Assembly (NCBI GenBank): GCA_016219235.1
Contig: JACRBO010000713.1
Coordinates: 1-8,325 of the forward strand
Direction of reading: 5' to 3'
Source: Chloroflexota bacterium
GTDB lineage: Bacteria > Chloroflexota > Anaerolineae > Fen-1058
Length of the DNA stretch: 8,325 bases
The translations under genes were made by a program, and so were the position numbers. Shown in pieces: positions 1 through 8,325 of the stretch (position 1 is the stretch's first letter; the number at the start of each line of letters is the position of its first letter). The notes beneath the pieces were generated by a model. The model was not told the origin of the DNA. It did no database searches and saw only the letters and a list, made by a program, of their open reading frames with translations.

Positions 1-389
1 TCCTGCCGATGGACCTGGCCGGAAAATATCAGCGGCACGAACGACGCGAACGGGCCGCGCATTTGCTGGACATCGTTGGCCTGAGCGATCAACTTCACAA
101 ACTGCCGAGCGCCGTGTCGGGCGGGCAGCAGCAGCGCGCGGCGATTGCGCGCGCGTTAGCCAACGATCCCGCGCTGATCGTGGCCGACGAGCCGACCGGC
201 AACCTCGATTCGCGCACTTCGCAGGATGTTTTTGAGTTGTTCAGCGAAGTCGTCGGGCAGGGTAAAACCGTGCTCATGGTCACGCATGATAAGGAACTGG
301 CGCAGCGCGTGCCGCGGGTGGTCGAGATTCTGGACGGGCGCATCACGCGCGATGAATACGTCGGGCAGCCCGGCTGGGCAGGTTATTAG
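1..389 (+). CDS. ABC transporter ATP-binding protein, MacB/LolD type (3' part only)
   Basis: This is the C-terminal half of an ABC ATPase; the gene enters from the left edge, so the Walker A motif lies outside the window. The frame is open from base 3 and reads through to TAG at 387-389. Seen directly: the ABC signature VSGGQQQR, the Walker B segment [13 protein letters not shown] and the H-loop MVTHD, in the order and spacing typical of the MacB/LolD/FtsE group, which often has the DEPTGNLD sequence. The family hydrolyses ATP on the cytoplasmic face to drive an FtsX-type permease. The permease gene follows on the same strand after an 84-nt gap, so the two almost certainly form one transporter. 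The gap is unusually wide for such a pair and is filled by a long inverted repeat. The substrate cannot be told from this fragment. Confidence 0.93.
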
Positions 390-455
390 AGACCTGTCAG
401 GTGGCGCAAATATTGGCTTGTTTTTCAGGTATTTATTGCGCCACCTGACAGGTCT
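390..455. repeat. Perfect 20-bp inverted repeat (hairpin) between ABC ATPase and permease genes
   Basis: The arms at 390-409 and 436-455 are perfect reverse complements of 20 bp around a 26-nt AT-rich spacer. Each arm contains the odd palindrome ACCTG-T-CAGGT. The repeat starts one base after the ATPase stop codon and ends 18 nt before the permease start. No T-run follows the right arm, so a simple intrinsic terminator is unlikely. It resembles a REP/MITE-like or mRNA-processing hairpin. A structurally similar element with different arm sequence lies at 4051-4114. Confidence 0.85.
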
Positions 456-473
456 AACGGACGAACGAATATA

Positions 474-2876
474 ATGAGCGTTATCTGGCAGAAGGTCTGG
501 TCTGATCTGTGGCACAACAAAGTGCGCACGCTGCTGAGTGTGCTGAGCATCGCGGCCGGCGTGTTCGCCATCGGCGCGATCTTTGGCATGACCGACAAAA
601 TGCTATCGGGGATGGACGCCGCGCATCAATCGGTCACGCCGTCGCACATCAACATGTTCTTGAGCGCGTACATCAGCCGCGACGATGCGCTGGCGCTGCG
701 GTCGGTGCCGGGCGTGCTGGACATCGAAGTTCAGAATATGATCACCGTCCGGTACAAAGTCAATCCACAGGATGACTGGAAACAAGGCTCGCTGGTGATG
801 CGCGATGATTACACCGATCAGCACAGCGATCTGGTGCAGCTCAAGGAGGGCCAGTGGCCTCAGGGCGACGCCATCGACATCGAGCGGCTGGCCAGCCAGT
901 TCCTCAAAATTGGCGTAGGCGATCACATCCTCATTCGCTACGACAACACCGAACACGAGTACCCGCTCGGCGGCCTGATCCGCCATCCCTTTGTGCCGCC
1001 GCCCGATTTCGGCGGGCCGCCTTACTTCTTCGCCAACGCCGATCAGATGGAACGCTTTGGCGTGCCATCCGGCAAATATCTCAGCCTGTTGATCCGCGTT
1101 ACGCCCTACAGCGCCGAGTATGCCAAAGAAGTCGCCGCCGATATCAAAGATAAGTTATCGAAACAGGGCATCGGCGTGATGATGACACTGTATCAAGACC
1201 CGCTCAAACACTGGGGGCGCATGTACGTTGAGGGCATGACGCTGGTGATGCAGGTGCTGGCCGTCATCTCGCTGTTCATGAGCGTGGTGCTGGTCTTCAA
1301 TACGCTAACGGCGCTCATCACGCAGCAGACGAACCAGATCGGCATCATCAAAGCGATCGGCGGGCGCGCGCCGACGATTATCAAAGTGTATCTGGCCGGC
1401 GTACTGGCGTACGGTCTGCTGGCGTTGATCATCGCGCTGCCGCTGGGCATGTTCCTGGCGTTCGGGATGACGCAGTGGTTCTTGAATCTGTTCAACATCG
1501 ATTACACGACGTTCCAGGTGTCCACCCAGGCCACCATCCTGCAAGTGATTGCGGCGATGGGCGTGCCGCTGCTGGCCGGCCTGATTCCGGTATTGAGCGC
1601 GGCGGGCATCACCGTGCGGCAGGCGATTGCCAGTTACGGCCTGGGCGGCGACTTTGGATCCAGCTGGCTCGATCGGTTGGTGGAGCGTATCGGCGCGAAG
1701 CTGCTGCCGTCGCATTACGCGACAGCGCTGGGCAATCTCTTTCGGCGCAAGGGTCGTTTGATCCTGACGCAGCTGGTGCTGGTCTCTGCTGGCACGATGT
1801 TTCTGCTGGTGATGACGCTCTCGAGATCGATCGACTTTACGCTCGACGAGGTCTTTCAACGCCGCAACTTCGATGTGACGCTGTCCTTCCGCGAACGCCA
1901 GCGGGTGGATCGCCTGGCGGGGATCACGTCGGCCACCGAGGGTGTAGAGGCGATCGAGTTGTGGCCGACGTACTCAGTCTCGATCCTGCGTGACGGCAAA
2001 CGGGCTAAAGAAGCCGGGTTGGGCGCGGAGCTGGTCGGCGTGCCGATCGGCAGTGACTTCTACCGCGAAGTCGTCATCGCCGGCCGCTGGTTGATCCCCG
2101 GCGACAGCCGCGCGATTGTGATGAATCAAGACACGGCCGGCAAGAACGACATCGTGGTGGGCGACACGATTACGCTCGACATCGGCGGCATCGGCAAAAC
2201 CGATTGGCAGGTGGTGGGCCTGTATCAGGTGATCTTCAACGATAACTTTTCATCGGACGCGATCTATGCGCCGACGGAGGTGGTCTATGAAGTCAGCAAC
2301 AAGATCAATCGGGGCAACCTGCTGCACGTGCGGACCACAGCCCATACGGAAACAGCGGTGGATGCAGTCACGGCGCAGCTGAAGAATCAATTTGAAGTCG
2401 GTAACTTGAAGCTGGGTTACAGCCAGACTGAAATCGAAATCCAGAAACGGGCGACGAGCCAGTTTGCGATCTTCACTTCGATGCTGCTGGCGTTGGCGAT
2501 CATGATTGCCGCAGTGGGCGGCATCGGCCTGATGGGGGCGTTGTCGATCAGCGTCGTCGAGCGCACCAAAGAGATCGGTGTGCTGCGGGCCATCGGCGCG
2601 CGCTCGCGCACGATTATGGGCATGTTCATGCTGGAAGGCGTGCTGCAAGGCGCGATCAGCTGGCTCGTGTCGATCGTGGTATCGTTGGGTCTGGCGCGCG
2701 TCGTCGCCGGCGCGATGGGCCAGGCGATCTTCAACATGGAACTCTCGTACCAGTACGATTGGACGGCCGTCGGGGTGTGGCTGGCGATCGTGTTTGTCAT
2801 CTCGACGCTGGCTTCGATCTTGCCGGCGCGCAACGCCACGTTGATCAGCGTGCGCGATAGTTTGAGCTATGCGTGA
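474..2876 (+). CDS. ABC transporter permease, MacB/FtsX family, duplicated domain form
   Basis: An 800-residue membrane protein with the layout TM helix, extracytoplasmic domain, three-helix FtsX domain, then the same pattern again. The first TM is at about residues 20-39 and is followed by a MacB-like periplasmic core region to about 250. FtsX domain 1 spans about 255-390 and contains the typical QIGIIKAIGG turn. A second N-terminal-type TM lies near 430-450 with a second core region to about 660. FtsX domain 2 spans about 669-795 and contains VVERTKEIGVLRAIGAR, the conserved cytoplasmic coupling segment. Gram-negative MacB has one such unit fused to an ATPase; here the ATPase is the separate upstream gene. 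The family uses mechanotransmission to export lipids, lipoproteins, peptides or drugs. No clear Shine-Dalgarno precedes the ATG. The stop is TGA, which shows that TGA terminates normally here. The substrate is unknown. Confidence 0.93.
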   Translation: MSVIWQKVWSDLWHNKVRTLLSVLSIAAGVFAIGAIFGMTDKMLSGMDAAHQSVTPSHINMFLSAYISRDDALALRSVPGVLDIEVQNMITVRYKVNPQDDWKQGSLVMRDDYTDQHSDLVQLKEGQWPQGDAIDIERLASQFLKIGVGDHILIRYDNTEHEYPLGGLIRHPFVPPPDFGGPPYFFANADQMERFGVPSGKYLSLLIRVTPYSAEYAKEVAADIKDKLSKQGIGVMMTLYQDPLKHWGRMYVEGMTLVMQVLAVISLFMSVVLVFNTLTALITQQTNQIGIIKAIGGRAPTIIKVYLAGVLAYGLLALIIALPLGMFLAFGMTQWFLNLFNIDYTTFQVSTQATILQVIAAMGVPLLAGLIPVLSAAGITVRQAIASYGLGGDFGSSWLDRLVERIGAKLLPSHYATALGNLFRRKGRLILTQLVLVSAGTMFLLVMTLSRSIDFTLDEVFQRRNFDVTLSFRERQRVDRLAGITSATEGVEAIELWPTYSVSILRDGKRAKEAGLGAELVGVPIGSDFYREVVIAGRWLIPGDSRAIVMNQDTAGKNDIVVGDTITLDIGGIGKTDWQVVGLYQVIFNDNFSSDAIYAPTEVVYEVSNKINRGNLLHVRTTAHTETAVDAVTAQLKNQFEVGNLKLGYSQTEIEIQKRATSQFAIFTSMLLALAIMIAAVGGIGLMGALSISVVERTKEIGVLRAIGARSRTIMGMFMLEGVLQGAISWLVSIVVSLGLARVVAGAMGQAIFNMELSYQYDWTAVGVWLAIVFVISTLASILPARNATLISVRDSLSYA

Positions 2877-2903
2877 CACATACATAGAAACAGGCTGAGC
2901 GAT

Positions 2904-4010
2904 ATGACCACCAAATTCATCGACCGATTACGTGGATGCTGCGCCGTGCTGTGCGTGCTGACTGTGATGTTGGCCGGGTGTTCAAGTCTGCCGGTCACCG
3001 TCGCGCCCGCCGGTACCTCGACTCCGATCTCGGACACCGGCGTATACTGGCCCACTGCGGCCTGGCGCACCTCGCCCCCGGAAGAACAGGGCATGGACTC
3101 AGCGAAGCTGGCAGAGCTGTTGGATGCGATCCGACAACAGCGCCTGGACTTACACAGCCTCCTGATCATTCGGAACGGCTATCTGGTCAGCGAAACCTAT
3201 TTTGGGTCATATCAACAGGACACACGTCACGTGTTATATTCCTGCACCAAGAGCTTCGTGGCCACGCTCGTTGGCATCGCGATCGATCATGGCTATATCG
3301 ATGGAACTGACCATCGAATCGTCGATTTTTTCTCAGAGCGTACATTCGCCAATCTCGACGGGCAAAAGGAAGAGATGACGCTGGAAGATGTGCTGACGAT
3401 GCAGTCTGGCCTGGATTGGCAAGAAGGCGATCCGGCCTATCAGGCCATGTATGGAAGCGCGGATTGGGTCAAGTTCATGCTCGATAAGCCAATGGCTGTG
3501 CCGCCTGGCAGCCAGTTCAACTATTGCTCGGGCTGCTCACATTTGTTGTCCGCCATTGTTCAGCAGACAACGGGCCTGAACACTCGCGACTTTGCCGAAC
3601 AATACTTGTTCAAGCCGCTTGGCATTTCGAATGCGGAATGGGAGACCGACGCTGCCGGCCTGCCCATCGGCGGCTGGGGATTGCAATTGACGCCACGCGA
3701 TATGGCGAAACTGGGCTATTTGTATCTCCAGGGCGGACGCTGGGCGGGTCACCAAATCATCTCCACCGAATGGATACAGACGGCCACGCACGCCCACGCG
3801 CAGGCCGAGGGTAATCTGGACTACGGCTATCAATGGTGGACGCAGTCATCGCCGATAGCCTACGCCGCGTTGGGGCGCTATGGACAGACGATCTTCGTGG
3901 TTCCACAGTTTGATCTGGTCATCGTCACGACGGCTCAACTGGATAACCATGACGCCATATTTCAGTTGATCGATCAATACATTCTTCCGGCCGTCCAGAC
4001 ATCGCCATAG
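2904..4010 (+). CDS. Lipoprotein serine hydrolase, beta-lactamase/class C PBP fold (Pfam Beta-lactamase type)
   Basis: A 368-residue protein starting with a lipoprotein signal peptide: basic residues K4, R8 and R10, a hydrophobic stretch, then the lipobox L23-A24-G25-C26, so it should be anchored to the outer membrane face. The catalytic SxxK motif is S113-C114-T115-K116. A second motif, Y207-C208-S209 inside QFNYCSG, stands in for the YxN/YxS of class C beta-lactamases. The third motif is the GRYGQ region at 324-328, replacing KTG/HxG as in many esterase-like members. Such proteins act as D,D-peptidases, esterases or amide hydrolases; true beta-lactamase activity cannot be assumed. It starts 27 nt after the permease and is probably co-transcribed with the ABC genes, which suggests an envelope role. 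The Shine-Dalgarno is weak. Confidence 0.9.
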   Translation: MTTKFIDRLRGCCAVLCVLTVMLAGCSSLPVTVAPAGTSTPISDTGVYWPTAAWRTSPPEEQGMDSAKLAELLDAIRQQRLDLHSLLIIRNGYLVSETYFGSYQQDTRHVLYSCTKSFVATLVGIAIDHGYIDGTDHRIVDFFSERTFANLDGQKEEMTLEDVLTMQSGLDWQEGDPAYQAMYGSADWVKFMLDKPMAVPPGSQFNYCSGCSHLLSAIVQQTTGLNTRDFAEQYLFKPLGISNAEWETDAAGLPIGGWGLQLTPRDMAKLGYLYLQGGRWAGHQIISTEWIQTATHAHAQAEGNLDYGYQWWTQSSPIAYAALGRYGQTIFVVPQFDLVIVTTAQLDNHDAIFQLIDQYILPAVQTSP

Positions 4011-4050
4011 ATTCAACCGGATGTGGCTAACATGGGTTGATCGCCAGTCA

Positions 4051-4114
4051 AGACCTCGGAGGTTTCATGAGACGGTCAAGCATGGCCCATCAGCCGTGAA
4101 AACCTCCGAGGTCT
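4051..4114. repeat. Inverted repeat (hairpin) upstream of the merB-like gene
   Basis: Arms 4051-4065 and 4100-4114 are perfect reverse complements of 15 bp, and pairing extends two more base pairs inward if one A is bulged. Each arm holds the odd palindrome ACCTC-G-GAGGT, the same 5-1-5 design and the same AGACCT start as the repeat at 390-455, with compensating C/G changes. It occupies the centre of the 182-nt gap 4011-4192, where I see no gene and no convincing promoter. No T-run follows it. Confidence 0.8.
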
Positions 4115-4181
4115 GCGCCCGGTGCGCAGGACTATTCTGGCCGCAGTCAAACGAAGCCGCTTCATCACGTGCACTCACGAT

Positions 4182-4187
4182 AGGAGA
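4182..4187 (+). promoter_or_regulatory. Ribosome binding site of the merB-like gene
   Basis: AGGAGA lies 5 nt upstream of the ATG at 4193. This is a strong Shine-Dalgarno and one of the best in the window. It supports 4193 as the start and argues that the gene is expressed in spite of its in-frame TGA codons. Confidence 0.8.
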
Positions 4188-4192
4188 CAATC

Positions 4193-4936
4193 ATGAGCAA
4201 TGCTTTGTTGCTGGGCATGGGCCGGCGACTCATCCCGATTCCGGCGTTTATCTGGCAGCGGCAGGTGAAGGGCAACACCGGCGATGCGCCGACGGCCTTT
4301 ATGACGGCCGATCATCATCGCGTGCGAAATTTCGTCGTGACGGAACTGCCGATCGCGGGCCGGCCGTTGTCGCCGGAATTGATCGCCGCCCGCTTGAATC
4401 TGCTGCTCGATCGGACAAACGCCCTCCTCGACGATCTGGAACGGCATCTGACCTTTTTGTTTCGCGACGAAGCGGGCGGGGTGGAGTGGGCGTATCCGGT
4501 GACGGCCGCGCGGACGCCGCATCGCTTCACGGCCAACACCGGCGAGTCGTTGTATGCGGCTTGAGCGGTCGATGCGATTGCGACGCCCTTCGTGCAAGGG
4601 CGCTTACGACCGGACTTCACCTCCATCTCGCTCACGACGGAATGCGCGCATTGCGGCCAGCCGCTGCATATCGAGATCGATCGCGACTTGAACTATCGGG
4701 TGGCCGAGGCCGGCGCCCGCCCCATCGTGGCCGCGCCGCAGGTCAACTTTGCCCGGCTGCGCGATCCCAGCATCATCGATGCCTTCTGAAGCAAGTCCAT
4801 CTTCTTCTGGTCAGAAGAACACGCTCGTGAATATCGCCAGCAGCACAGCGACGATCGCTGCACTTATCTGACGCTGGAGCAGGCCGTCTACGTCACACGC
4901 CTCGTTCAAAGCGTGATATTTGCGTTTCCGTTGTGA
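4193..4936 (+). CDS. merB: Alkylmercury lyase (MerB)-like selenoprotein with two in-frame TGA (Sec124, Sec199)
   Basis: Read through two TGA codons (4562-4564 and 4787-4789), this frame encodes 247 residues ending at TGA 4934-4936. MerB cleaves the carbon-mercury bond of organomercurials in the cytoplasm. From memory of the R831b enzyme, ELAKGRPVS, RRLYAWC96ALD99 and SFC159CHVHFFAS correspond here to ELPIAGRPLS, ESLYAA-U124-AVD127 and DAF-U199-SKSIFFWS. Both catalytic cysteines are therefore TGA, while the catalytic Asp is kept as D127. C151 in CAHCGQP matches structural Cys117. The N-terminal part (about 45-90) fits the MerB helical domain. Each TGA is followed by a SECIS-like hairpin. The rest of the frame is undamaged and has a strong RBS, so decay is unlikely. 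Neighbouring genes use TGA as a stop, so global reassignment is unlikely. A conventional caller would report a 123-residue fragment. No other mer genes are nearby, so the true substrate is uncertain. Confidence 0.88.
4562..4564 (+). other. In-frame TGA read as selenocysteine 124 (MerB Cys96 position)
   Basis: The codon lies in YAA-TGA-AVD, which lines up with YAW-Cys96-ALD of MerB. One base separates it from TGC. The same frame continues with TPF, GRL and CAHCG conserved sequence. Confidence 0.87.
4566..4612 (+). promoter_or_regulatory. Putative bacterial SECIS element 1
   Basis: Inner stem 4584-4590 pairs with 4596-4602 (7 perfect bp) and closes a 5-nt loop CGUGC. A lower 6-bp stem, 4566-4571 with 4607-4612, starts one base after the TGA and is separated from the inner stem by an asymmetric internal loop. 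The apical loop begins 26 nt after the TGA and has G then U at its second and third positions. This agrees with the general bacterial SECIS pattern of a hairpin within the coding region, a G early in the loop and roughly 16-37 nt spacing. Confidence 0.75.
4787..4789 (+). other. In-frame TGA read as selenocysteine 199 (MerB Cys159 position)
   Basis: The codon lies in DAF-TGA-SKSIFFWS, which lines up with QSF-Cys159-CHVHFFAS of MerB. Downstream the same frame gives about 48 further residues with the MerB C-terminal helix-like segment, then stops at 4934-4936. Confidence 0.85.
4802..4819 (+). promoter_or_regulatory. Putative bacterial SECIS element 2
   Basis: Stem 4802-4808 pairs with 4813-4819 (7 perfect bp) around the tetraloop GGUC (4809-4812). 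The loop starts 19 nt after the TGA at 4787-4789. GGUC is also found in the apical loop of the E. coli fdhF SECIS, whose G and U contact SelB (established knowledge). There is no T-tail, and the coding frame runs through the hairpin. Confidence 0.78.
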
Positions 4937-4960
4937 ACCCGGGTTTGAATCAGGGCGCTC

Positions 4961-4966
4961 AAGGAG
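4961..4966 (+). promoter_or_regulatory. Ribosome binding site of the deazaflavin reductase remnant
   Basis: AAGGAG sits 9 nt before ATG 4976 in the 39-nt gap after the merB-like stop. It shows that the remnant once had its own translation start, probably as the second gene of an operon with merB. Confidence 0.65.
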
Positions 4967-4975
4967 CACTTGGCT

Positions 4976-5336
4976 ATGTGGTTCATGAATCATATCGTTA
5001 ATCCGATCGTGCGCTTGATTTTGTGTTCCCCCCGTCCATCGATTGTTCAGCAAATTGATCGTGCTGATCACTTATCAGGGCCGCAAGAGCGGCAAGACTT
5101 ACACACTGCCGGTGCAATTTGTGTAAGCCGATAAACTGATCTACATCCTGCCTGGCGCGCCCGGGCAAAAGACGTGGTGGCGTAATCTGCGCGGCGGTGC
5201 GCCCGTGCGATTGCGTTTGGGTGGACCAGACCTGAATGCGCAGGCCGAGGTATTGGCGGGCGATACGAACGGCGAAGAGATCAGGCGCGCACTGGACTCA
5301 TACTTGCACCGCACCAAATCGCTTACTGCCAGTTAG
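4976..5336 (+). pseudogene. Deazaflavin (F420)-dependent nitroreductase family gene, frameshifted and interrupted
   Basis: The start encodes MWFMNHIVNPIVRLILCSP. An extra C in the six-C run at 5028-5033 then breaks the frame; in the new frame the text reads VHRLFSKLIVLITYQGRKSGK, then TLPVQFV, a TAA stop at 5124-5126, then ADKLIYILPGAPGQKTWWRN, then GGAPVRL to TAG 5334-5336. These are hallmarks of the DDN/DUF385 deazaflavin-dependent nitroreductase family: the GRKSGK region, and PG followed by WWRNLRGG. The corrected length is about 119 residues, near the short end of the family. The homopolymer frameshift could be an assembly error, but TAA cannot be explained as selenocysteine, so the copy seems broken as read. 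It lies 39 nt after merB with a good RBS. Its last 14 bases overlap the end of the convergent DUF1573 gene. Confidence 0.75.
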
Positions 5337-5814
5337 ACAACACTTGCAGCACTTTCTCCGGCTGCGCGGGATCGTTGGTGAGCAGGTGCACGCGAAAATC
5401 GTGCGGGCCGCCCATCTCGCCGTGCATCATGAACGACATCGACAGGGTGGTTTTCTGGCCGGGCATGAGGACCATCGTACCGATGGCCGGGACCGGCGGT
5501 CAACACCCCGCCGCGACTTCGATGTAGGGCTTCTCCTTGAAACGCAGTGGCGCATCACCCGTGTTGGCGACCTCGAACGAGACTTGCACCGTCTGCCCCA
5601 GCTTCACATCGCCAAAGTCAAACTTGTCCTTATCGACGCTCAACGCTGGAGCGCCGCTGGTAATGGGCACAGTGGGCACGGTCGTTGAGCTACCAGTGTT
5701 GCTCAACACCGCGACCGCGATCAGCACCACACCCGCCACGATGATTAGCGGCAGCCAGATGGGAAAGCCCGGCTGTTTCGGCGGCGTCACTTTCTTCGAT
5801 GGTTTCGTCGTCAA
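5323..5814 (-). CDS. Membrane-anchored DUF1573-type selenoprotein with Cys-Sec motif (Sec105)
   Basis: The frame starts at TTG 5814 and encodes 104 residues to a TGA at 5502-5500. It then continues in frame for 58 residues to TAA 5325-5323, giving 163 residues. An N-terminal lysine/proline-rich stretch is followed by one TM helix (about 19-37). The extracytoplasmic domain contains FDFGDVKLGQTV and FEVANTGDAPL, typical of DUF1573/ASH-like beta-sandwich proteins. The TGA falls in AAGC-TGA-PPVP; I recall related proteins with GCCPP, so the TGA would replace the second Cys. Downstream FMMHGEMGGPHDF (128-140) and LLTNDP fit the domain's C-terminal half and could bind metal. A SECIS-like hairpin follows the TGA. 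The gene sits 15 nt after the CuA/cytochrome gene, so it probably serves the same extracytoplasmic electron-transfer module. Its function is unknown; a redox or copper-handling role is inference. Confidence 0.83.
5470..5488 (-). promoter_or_regulatory. Putative bacterial SECIS element 3
   Basis: On the minus strand, 5488-5482 pairs with 5476-5470 (7 bp including one G-U) around the loop GGUAC (5481-5477). The loop starts 18 nt after the TGA at 5502-5500. It begins with GG and contains GU, like the loops of the two merB elements. Confidence 0.73.
5500..5502 (-). other. In-frame TGA read as selenocysteine 105 in C-U-P-P motif
   Basis: The codon directly follows TGT (Cys104) and precedes two proline codons. 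Sequence conserved in the family continues in the same frame up to an ordinary TAA at 5325-5323. Confidence 0.8.
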
Positions 5815-5820
5815 GGTTGT

Positions 5821-5828
5821 CCCTCCTC
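5821..5828 (-). promoter_or_regulatory. Strong RBS fixing the TTG start of the DUF1573 gene
   Basis: GAGGAGGG on the minus strand lies 6 nt before TTG 5814-5812. In the same frame the only codons between the upstream gene's TAA (5832-5830) and this TTG are CGA, GGA, GGG, ACA and ACC, so TTG is the only reasonable start near the motif. Confidence 0.8.
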
Positions 5829-5829
5829 G

Positions 5830-6816
5830 TTACTCAAACTGAAATGTCCACAGATAATCAATCAACGCCCACGTCTGCGCCTCGGTGAAGATCGGCCCCC
5901 AGTACGGCATACCGGTGCCCATGCCGCCGCGCACGATTTTACCTTGCAACAGGGCCGAATTCGCGCCGAGCATGTTCCGCGCGTCGGTGAAATCGATCGG
6001 CGTAACGGTGGCGTGCCCGATCATACCCGGCATATCCGACGGGTTCGCTGTCTGCAATGAACCGGCCATGACGCCATCGCCCTGGCCTGTCTCACCATGA
6101 CAGGCCGCGCAGTTTTCGGCATACAATTTTTTGCCTGCCGCCAATCGCTCCGGCGTTGTGTTCGATTGCCACGTCAGCGCGACTAAGTCCCACACTTGCT
6201 GATCGGTCAACGACTTTGATGAAGCACGCGCGCGCAACTGCCGCCACACCTGCGCGGGACTCTGCACCCGATAGGCGTCGGCCCGATCGAGATCGGCGGC
6301 GACACCGGGTCTGACGTTCAACGCAGCGCCGCGTGCCGCCAAGGGCTTAATATCAGGCGCCACCTCGCTGAGGTGGGGGGCATCCAGATCGAGTTTCAGT
6401 ATCGCGTACAGCGGGGGCGGCTCAACAGGGGTGTTCGTCTCATCCCCTGTCACTTCGATTGTACCCCGCATGCGCCAGTGATTGGCCCCGCACCAGCGCG
6501 TGCAGTAAAACGTGTACTTGCCGGGTCGATCGAAGATCACTGTGGTGGTCGTCCATTTGCCCGGCATTACATCGAGGGTTGGTCGATCGCTTTGGCCGAT
6601 CGCAAAGCCGTGCACGACATCGTCGGAGGTGAGCCGCAAGTTGATCGGTTCGCCAACAGCCGCCGTGATTTCACCCGGTGTCCAGCCGCCCTCGTCGGCC
6701 ATGACGCCGTGCAGCTCGATCGGGCCGCCACCAGCCGATCGGGCTGTCACGATCAGCATCGGCAAACCGATCGCGATCAAAATGACTAACACTCGCGCAC
6801 AGCGTTCAGCCTTCAT
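5830..6816 (-). CDS. CuA cupredoxin-cytochrome c fusion protein (cytochrome c oxidase subunit II-like)
   Basis: A 328-residue exported electron-transfer protein. Residues 6-27 form a signal peptide or anchor helix. A cupredoxin domain (about 30-123) carries a complete CuA site: H69, then C105-x3-C109-x3-H113-x2-M116 within YCTRWCGANHWRM, as in COX subunit II and NosZ. A linker rich in Pro and Ala leads to a class I cytochrome c domain (about 220-328) with the haem motif C236-A-A-C239-H240 and a candidate axial Met at M303 in GMGTGMPYWG. Unlike classical subunit II, there are not two N-terminal TM hairpin helices. The ATG overlaps the upstream stop by 4 nt (ATGA), so translation is probably coupled; a longer frame upstream is open but is just overlap with the FeS gene. 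The probable role is passing electrons from the membrane FeS protein to a periplasmic acceptor. Confidence 0.9.
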   Translation of the reverse strand: MKAERCARVLVILIAIGLPMLIVTARSAGGGPIELHGVMADEGGWTPGEITAAVGEPINLRLTSDDVVHGFAIGQSDRPTLDVMPGKWTTTTVIFDRPGKYTFYCTRWCGANHWRMRGTIEVTGDETNTPVEPPPLYAILKLDLDAPHLSEVAPDIKPLAARGAALNVRPGVAADLDRADAYRVQSPAQVWRQLRARASSKSLTDQQVWDLVALTWQSNTTPERLAAGKKLYAENCAACHGETGQGDGVMAGSLQTANPSDMPGMIGHATVTPIDFTDARNMLGANSALLQGKIVRGGMGTGMPYWGPIFTEAQTWALIDYLWTFQFE

Positions 6817-8296
6817 CCGATCAACAATCCCATTAAACTGGCCGTGACGGCGAAGCAGAAGCCCATCACCGGCGAGGCCTGCAACAGCGCCTTGCGGCCA
6901 GTCGATTTTTCGGCGGCGATGTTGCGCGCCGTCACACACGCCCACGCCAACCCGACGACCAACACACTCGTTTGCAACAGCGGCACCAGCGAGGTGAGAT
7001 ACGGCTGCCAGTTCACATTCAACGTGCCGAAGAGATTCCAGCCCAGCCCCAGCGGATCGCTCAACGTGGGCCACAGATACGAGAGGTTGGCGAACACGAA
7101 CGACAGGCTGAACGCGATCCACGCCGTGAGGCCCAGCGGCACGAGCGCATAGGCGAAGGCGATAAAATTTTCTTAAGCGGTTGATTGGACTTGCTTAAAG
7201 CGCGACCGATGGCGACCGCGCTCAGAAACAGCCCTGGCAAAATCCCGAAAATCAAGCCTAAAAACGAGAGCGCATACATCAGCCACATCCCGCTGCCGAT
7301 GGTGTATGCGGCGGACTTCAACGCGCCCCACGGTCCCAACATCACCGCCGAGTAGATCAGCGCGCCACCCAGCATGATGAAGGCCTTAAACGCCTCATCG
7401 AGTTTGCGATCCGCCGGTTGATGCAAGTCCGCGCCGAACGGTCGCAAGTTAAGCGCGAGGTTGTCGTGCGGACAGGTGCGCAGGCATTCCAGGCACGTGC
7501 CGCAATAGGTGTTCTTCGTCAGCGCGCCGGGATACAACAACCACGGGCAGCCATAACCGTCGGCGCTGCCCACGTAGCACGATTTATCGGTGTGTGCCGC
7601 GCAGATGGCCGTGTCCTTCACGCGAATTTCGAGCGGCGCGAGTTGCGAATACAGGCCAATGAAACCGCCGACGGGGCAGAGATAACGGCAGAAGGCACGC
7701 CGCTCAAAGATCAGGCTGGTGCCGATGGCGACGAAGAGAAAGGCCAACAGCACAATCGCCGTGATGGTGGGCTGCGTCAGGATGACGGCGCTGAACAAGG
7801 CGACCAGTGTAAAGGCGATGTTTTGCAGCCAGATATTGCGAAAGCGTTTGGGCCACTTGCGATTGAGACTCAGCCCTTTTTTCTGAGGGCCAAGCACCGC
7901 GCCATTTTGCAGGCATTCGCCCGGCATGGGAATGGGGCAGATGCTGCACCAGCCGCGTCCGAAGACCGGCACGGCGATCAGCATCAGCAGCGCCCACCAC
8001 GCGATCCACACGAAGACGATGCCGAAGTTGTGACTGCCCACCGGCGTGCCGATCAGGCCGGCAATGATGGCGATGAGAAAACCCGCCAGCGCGATGGCGC
8101 GAGCGATCAACTGCGGCCAGCGATTCTGCAGCACAGCCCGGAGTATAGGCCAACGTAATAGATCAATGCGGCGTCGATCGCGCAGTGGTGCGAGGGCGCG
8201 CTGCACGTTCTGCCGCGCCGCAGGCGCAGGCTGCATCAACAGAGGGATAAGGGTTTCGTTGCGCGCATCTGAACCGTCGAGGTCGTGCCACATCAT
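6813..8296 (-). CDS. NosR/NapH/CcoG-like 4Fe-4S polytopic membrane protein, with apparent -1 frameshift
   Basis: The frame from ATG 8296 reads 376 residues, up to L374-K375-K376, and then degenerates into Arg/Ser/Cys-rich text ending at 7061. A -1 shift at the A4T4 tract (7164-7171) restores membrane-protein sequence, NFIAFAYALVPLGLTAWIAF, continuing for 118 residues to TGA 6813-6815 (about 494 in total). Cysteine motifs: C117-x2-C120-P, C203-x3-C207-P (the NosR/NapH FCxxxCP type), C232, C240, C250, and a ferredoxin cluster C265-x2-C268-x2-C271-x3-C275-P. TM helices lie near 63-83, 91-111, 157-195, 303-322 and 335-363, with more in the C-terminal part. The family moves electrons from quinol or other donors across the membrane. 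The shift may be an assembly indel or two separate genes (7061-8296 and 6813-7142, the latter with a GTG start). It is the first gene of the minus-strand operon in view. Confidence 0.85.
7164..7171 (-). other. Frameshift site in the FeS membrane protein gene (AAAATTTT)
   Basis: Before this tract the 8296 frame codes for membrane-protein sequence; after it only the -1 frame does. The overlap reads K-K then N-F-I-A-F. It does not match a classical X-XXY-YYZ slippery heptamer in the incoming frame, so a missing A (sequencing indel or true mutation) is more likely than programmed shifting. Confidence 0.65.
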
Positions 8297-8305
8297 GCGC
8301 GTTTG

Positions 8306-8311
8306 TCCTTC
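8306..8311 (-). promoter_or_regulatory. Ribosome binding site of the FeS membrane protein gene
   Basis: GAAGGA on the minus strand lies 9 nt before ATG 8296-8294. The frame stays open to the window edge, so an upstream start cannot be excluded, but this motif supports 8296 (or the adjacent ATG at 8293). Confidence 0.6.
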
Positions 8312-8325
8312 GACTGAATTGACCA

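Follow-up and report, generated by a model that had tools for sequence, protein, structure and literature searches.

A MerB-superfamily gene with in-frame TGA at both mercury-ligand positions, a probable di-selenocysteine protein recurring in bacteria of several phyla

The alkylmercury (organomercurial) lyase MerB binds organic mercury through Cys96 and Cys159, with Asp99 assisting (PMC4525700). A 2021 survey of MerB screened for Cys96, Asp99, Cys159, and Cys117 (PMC8261052). Among proteins with selenocysteine (Sec, U), Table 1 of a 2026 inventory has a single MerB entry, SaoL, with the motif CU and one Sec (PMC13188914), and passages of the table in a 2022 review likewise name one MerB-like protein (PMC9312934). 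The 2026 inventory also has two-Sec families, such as ferredoxin-thioredoxin reductase, a putative mercuric reductase with the motif UxxU, and MbdU (PMC13188914). In this study, we describe a MerB-superfamily gene with TGA at both ligand positions from a Chloroflexota bacterium (assembly GCA_016219235.1, contig JACRBO010000713.1, positions 1 to 8,325 of the forward strand; this whole stretch of 8,325 nucleotides is called the window). Taken as a whole, the findings are best explained by a PF03243 selenoenzyme in which Sec replaces both mercury-ligand cysteines and which likely cleaves an organomercurial, a reading that we hold with a probability of about 0.8.

The reading frame and its relatives

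The features of the gene are as follows, with their basis in brackets.
4193..4936, + strand: candidate MerB-superfamily gene with two Sec; 247 residues when the TGA codons 124 and 199 are translated as Sec (frame, PF03243, relatives)
4562..4564, + strand: TGA, putative Sec124, column of MerB Cys96 (frame, 3f2g alignment, relatives)
4571..4573, + strand: Asp127 codon, column of MerB Asp99 (3f2g alignment, relatives)
4643..4645, + strand: Cys151 codon, column of MerB Cys117 (3f2g alignment)
4787..4789, + strand: TGA, putative Sec199, column of MerB Cys159 (frame, 3f2g alignment, relatives)
4934..4936, + strand: TGA taken as the real stop, codon 248 (frame; homologous genes of about equal length)

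The frame holds two TGA codons before the terminal one and neither TAA nor TAG. With Cys written for Sec, the protein matches PF03243 at E 2.1e-17 and 63.7 bits, against a Pfam cut-off of 27. A preliminary description of this DNA had placed TGA at both catalytic Cys positions, with Asp kept at +3 and the structural Cys117 still Cys; alignment to 3f2g, whose residue numbers were counted by hand off the printed alignment, bears this out on all three points (U124 on Cys96, D127 on Asp99, C151 on Cys117, and U199 on Cys159). The chance that two randomly placed codons land on both ligand positions is 3.3e-5. The predicted structure has the MerB fold, and identity is 13-22% in structural alignments with solved MerB (3f0o, 3f2f, 3f2g, 3f2h, 3fn8, 5c0t, and 5c17).

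Relatives were collected from genome contigs by a scan whose patterns left out the two TGA columns, and the best 80 of 108 were kept, making 81 genes with that of the window; three of these matches (L059, L075, and L079) span only 211-219 codons. The ligand columns read TGA/TGA in 80 of the 81 genes and TGC/TGA in one (L072), and no gene has a further in-frame stop (TAA, TAG, or another TGA) inside it; the additional TGA of L010, at codon 251, lies past the usual end. The closest among these 80, L001 (Thermoflexales), is 83-84% identical to the window gene, and the labels of the relatives include Chloroflexi, Deltaproteobacteria, Desulfobacterales, Acidobacteria, Nitrospirae, Zixiibacteriota, Rokuibacteriota, and Bacteroidota. 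Thus, the two-TGA MerB is a widespread family and not one isolated oddity. A viral home was rejected: viral contigs gave 36 pattern matches, none of them a relative. Between the window and L001 the ratio of nonsynonymous to synonymous substitution (dN/dS) is 0.163 overall, and 0.199 before, 0.191 between, and 0.069 after the TGA codons; since it stays low past both, the read-through product is what is kept.

The protein database gave 63 matches, 33 of them aligned. Trp stands at both columns in 26 of these, which is best read as the product of table-4 translation of TGA; six have Cys at the first column, each ending exactly before the second, one ends before the first, and Cys/Cys does not occur among the 33. 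Selenoproteins typically show UGA where homologs have Cys, and Cys occurs here at both columns in 3f2g and at the first in L072 and the six database proteins. Two cut-short homologs, P0056 and P0063, carry PF10518, a domain of twin-arginine translocation (Tat) signals, and a stretch RRTFL at the start; together these suggest a Tat-type export signal, so some family members may be exported.

Hairpins after the UGA codons and the selenocysteine machinery

The preliminary description had placed a hairpin resembling a selenocysteine insertion sequence (SECIS) after each TGA. Two such candidates are
4585..4601, + strand: SECIS-like hairpin 1, stem of 6 bp, loop of 5 nt, 20 nt past the TGA (minimum-energy fold, codon conservation, RNAalifold)
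4802..4819, + strand: SECIS-like hairpin 2, stem of 7 bp, loop of 4 nt, 12 nt past the TGA (codon conservation, covariation, RNAalifold)

RNAalifold, given the 81 genes and no input structure, returns a hairpin of 6 pairs after the first TGA and one of 7 pairs after the second, which upholds the claim at the level of the family; the second hairpin is lacking in the fold of the window itself. Codon choice at the hairpins is nearly fixed (GTG for Val134 and GGG for Gly136 in 81/81 genes, TCA for Ser207 in 74/81), and when 85 conserved columns are ranked, the ten hairpin columns open to this test take places 1-4 and 7-12 (p 3.8e-7, kinship unweighted). In stem 2, a U-A pair is changed to C-G in four genes together with Trp206 to Arg, so that the protein is altered while the pair is kept. 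In a synonymous-shuffle test, the position after the first TGA has a mean z of -0.97, the lowest of 16. Single-sequence folding gives hairpin 1 weak support and hairpin 2 none, and the case for hairpin 2 stands on conservation and covariation. Rfam and tRNA scans of the window gave no matches.

A check for selA, selB, selC, and selD had also been proposed. It was carried out on the genomes of relatives and covered SelB and tRNA-Sec: 41 of the 80 loci were chosen by hand, and 40 of their genomes were searched. SelB is over its cut-off in 37/40 and tRNA-Sec over the gathering score in 36/40, or above 60 bits in 33/40. We used the stricter 60-bit count, because the control rings in 14 of 14 known genomes at a loose E-value and is over the score in five of them. 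With SelB at its cut-off and tRNA-Sec at more than 60 bits, at least one of the two is found in 39/40. Given how common SelB is in the phylum of L001 anyway (see below), its presence speaks for availability of the machinery, not for a link to the gene, and enrichment was dropped as proof.

Proposed function and rival explanations

We infer Sec insertion in this cell, the substrate, the catalysis, and the later fate of Hg(II) from the evidence above, with differing confidence: Sec at both positions is close to certain, while cleavage of an organomercurial by the two-Sec MerB is likely to a clearly lesser degree. SelB with Sec-tRNA would recode each UGA, aided by the hairpin downstream of it, and the UGA at codon 248 would terminate the protein. 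An organomercurial, for example methylmercury, would most likely be bound by the two selenolates and Asp127, which would drive attack by a proton on the C-Hg bond in the manner of Cys96, Cys159, and Asp99 in MerB, releasing hydrocarbon and Hg(II). Compared with thiols, selenols are stronger acids and hold mercury more firmly. Among chemical mimics, selones are faster than their sulfur counterparts at cleaving Hg-C bonds (PMC11639659). For both reasons a pair of selenolates should promote capture as well as cleavage. The slow step would then be the release of Hg(II), which, if we may speculate, sulfide, selenide, or a partner protein might ease. As MerA is over its cut-off in only 2/40 of the relatives' genomes, Hg(II) is probably not reduced to Hg(0) as a rule.

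Several observations weigh against this explanation. Regarding function, neither the ten commonest neighbour clusters (inspected by eye, within 4.5 kb at 81 loci, many on short contigs) nor five other proteins of the window that were scanned (Pfam and NCBIfam) include a recognised mer gene, and Hg(II) might be bound by two selenolates so tightly that turnover fails. The fold prediction used Cys in place of Sec. Regarding the hairpins, 8/81 genes do not pair at the base of stem 1, the minimum-energy fold of 54 nt of the window has hairpin 1 and lacks hairpin 2, and the shuffle test after the second TGA gives no excess folding stability (mean z -0.08). SelB occurs in 158/201 genomes of the phylum of L001 as a base rate, and one genome, that of L031, yields no SelB match over the cut-off and no tRNA-Sec scoring more than 60 bits. 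Finally, all 80 loci are labelled metagenome-assembled, so single taxon labels may be wrong.

The alternative that survives best keeps the di-Sec MerB-superfamily member and changes its task: the protein would act on a different organometallic or metalloid compound, or would merely sequester inorganic Hg(II). It shares the Sec reading with the preferred explanation, so that the probabilities of the two overlap, and we regard it as rather unlikely. The want of recognised mer neighbours and the rarity of MerA favour it, as does the score against the canonical MerB model NF009710 (NCBIfam equivalog), 56.7 bits for a cut-off of 193; moreover, NCBI names the MerB-like SaoL for organometallic compounds generally. 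Yet Asp99 and both ligand positions are kept in a protein under selection, which speaks against this alternative.

Far less probable is a suppressor tRNA-Cys that reads UGA as Cys and would yield an ordinary Cys/Cys MerB. Such tRNAs exist, and the homologs with Cys at the first column would suit one; however, SECIS-like hairpins follow both UGA codons, UGA is apparently still a stop in the same gene, and most genomes searched have SelB and tRNA-Sec; no search aimed at a suppressor tRNA was made. A decaying pseudogene or sequencing errors we consider scarcely credible. The contig may not be flawless, since two neighbours in the window look frameshifted by eye (4976-5336 and ~7150-7190), yet both were rejected on the shared TGA codons, the absence of further stops, and dN/dS. 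The preliminary description had held random decay unlikely and had called for homologs with Cys or TGA at both columns, and the relatives agree: 79/80 have the same two TGA and one has TGC/TGA, none of the 80 has another stop in frame, and dN/dS is low past both positions. Because the same arrangement recurs across bacteria of several phyla, the gene is very probably a genuine, overlooked selenoprotein rather than a broken gene. Equally negligible is UGA as Trp throughout the cell (code 4), which the Trp of the 26/33 database proteins would suit and which was rejected because Cys occupies the first column in some homologs and UGA ends the window gene, Trp moreover being unfit to serve as a mercury ligand.

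Wider family, neighbouring genes, and comparison with known systems

The MerB family holds several arrangements of these columns. Counts of PF03243 matches are lower bounds, the lone match in G030, the genome of L052, lying elsewhere than the L052 gene. In the phylum of L052 (labelled Desulfobacterales), which includes well-known mercury methylators, the family was found at 31 or more places in at least 24 of 198 genomes, and two-TGA forms make up 20 of the 31 places found. Nineteen of these were fetched. Four are members of the window's subfamily; the other 15 fall in what is here called the second U/U subfamily, where both ligand columns again read TGA and Glu takes the Asp99 column (L144, L146, L147, L149-L151, L153-L155, L157, L161-L163, L165, and L166). 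Identical column states are seen in L110, which comes from the phylum of L001. In the latter phylum at least 27 of 201 genomes have a PF03243 match, including Cys/Cys forms and a Cys/Sec subfamily with Cys at 96 and TGA at 159 (L093, L095, L097, L100, L104, L107, and L114). Two isolated MerB-like genes, L106 and L140, have a lone TGA, at the Cys159 column, with different residues around it (LUCKIYYF and YTUPLINFF, respectively). In a quick tree of 93 rows the window's subfamily (42 rows) is one group, with a Shimodaira-Hasegawa-like approximate likelihood ratio of 100, and the Cys96 column needs nine changes across the entire tree. The tree separates the two U/U subfamilies and the approximately unbiased test does not reject one clade (p 0.735); a single origin of both is neither shown nor rejected.

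Downstream in the window lies a probable second selenoprotein gene:
5323..5814, - strand: DUF1573-like gene, in-frame TGA at 5500-5502, motif GCUPP, hairpin at ~5470-5488 (profile match, relatives, folding)

Across the 40 genomes, DUF1573-like matches with E <1e-20 and exactly one TGA occur at 13 places in nine genomes, and one of these places adjoins a copy without TGA. Of ten loci inspected, nine have GCUP, and L133 is a Cys copy with GCCPQ. Minimum-energy folding of the window and of 11 relatives gives a hairpin past this TGA in every case. At 4976-5336 (+), downstream of the MerB gene, is a gene remnant apparently disrupted by a frame change and a TAA, which by eye resembles a DUF385-type protein. 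At 6813-8323 (-), a NapH-like ferredoxin gene has a frame that by eye seems broken near its end, at ~7150-7190, through either assembly error or real decay. Around the 81 loci, the commonest neighbour clusters, named by eye, are a family of MerR-type regulators (nine loci) and one of MarR type (eight loci).

These proteins have a bearing on how demethylation genes are counted. Gene callers cut at UGA and a MerB screen demands Cys, so such genes would be missed; the 2021 survey, whose screen required Cys at the ligand positions, would have left the two-TGA genes out, and counts of merB built on ordinary gene calls with Cys at both positions omit a group of likely demethylases (PMC8261052). A broader proposal, tentative and in our view falling a little short of even odds, is that organomercury-cleaving di-selenolate selenoenzymes lie hidden in several phyla, many of their hosts probably anaerobic, in at least two subfamilies with Asp or Glu as the acid, escaping both gene callers and screens. 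If so, they could explain some of the sediment methylmercury degradation to which no gene has been assigned. An exchange of both metal ligands of a known enzyme for selenium across several phyla would be an unusual natural experiment in replacing sulfur.

No title or abstract opening that we found names a two-Sec MerB, within a coverage that leaves out most subscription literature, Haft and Gwadz 2023 and Haft and Tolstoy 2025 included; an earlier mention in either of these two is conceivable. The window protein, L151, and L104 are each below the cut-offs of the NCBIfam (June 2026) models that they match. With canonical MerB the window protein shares PF03243, Asp99, and Cys117; its ligands, Cys in MerB, are here both encoded by TGA, so that the signature pair is present only if Sec is counted as equivalent, and no mer operon is recognised around it among the neighbours inspected. 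SaoL (NF040728), a MerB-like organometallic lyase, is alike in family and in having Sec at the Cys159 column. It differs in having Cys at the Cys96 column and a single Sec preceded by Cys, whereas in the window protein Phe precedes Sec199, the CU motif is absent, and there are two Sec. The window protein scores 47.0 bits, below the SaoL cut-off of 140, against 175 for an example of SaoL, L137; L104, the sole C/U member tested, is below both the SaoL and the MerB cut-offs. The second U/U subfamily agrees with the window in TGA at both ligand columns and differs in Glu for Asp99 (L151 scores 36.4 against 193 for MerB and 39.9 against 140 for SaoL). The two-Sec families of the 2026 inventory are alike in their number of Sec per protein and belong to other families; those with UxxU hold both Sec in one short motif, whereas those of the window protein are 75 residues apart and fill both ligand positions of one active site.
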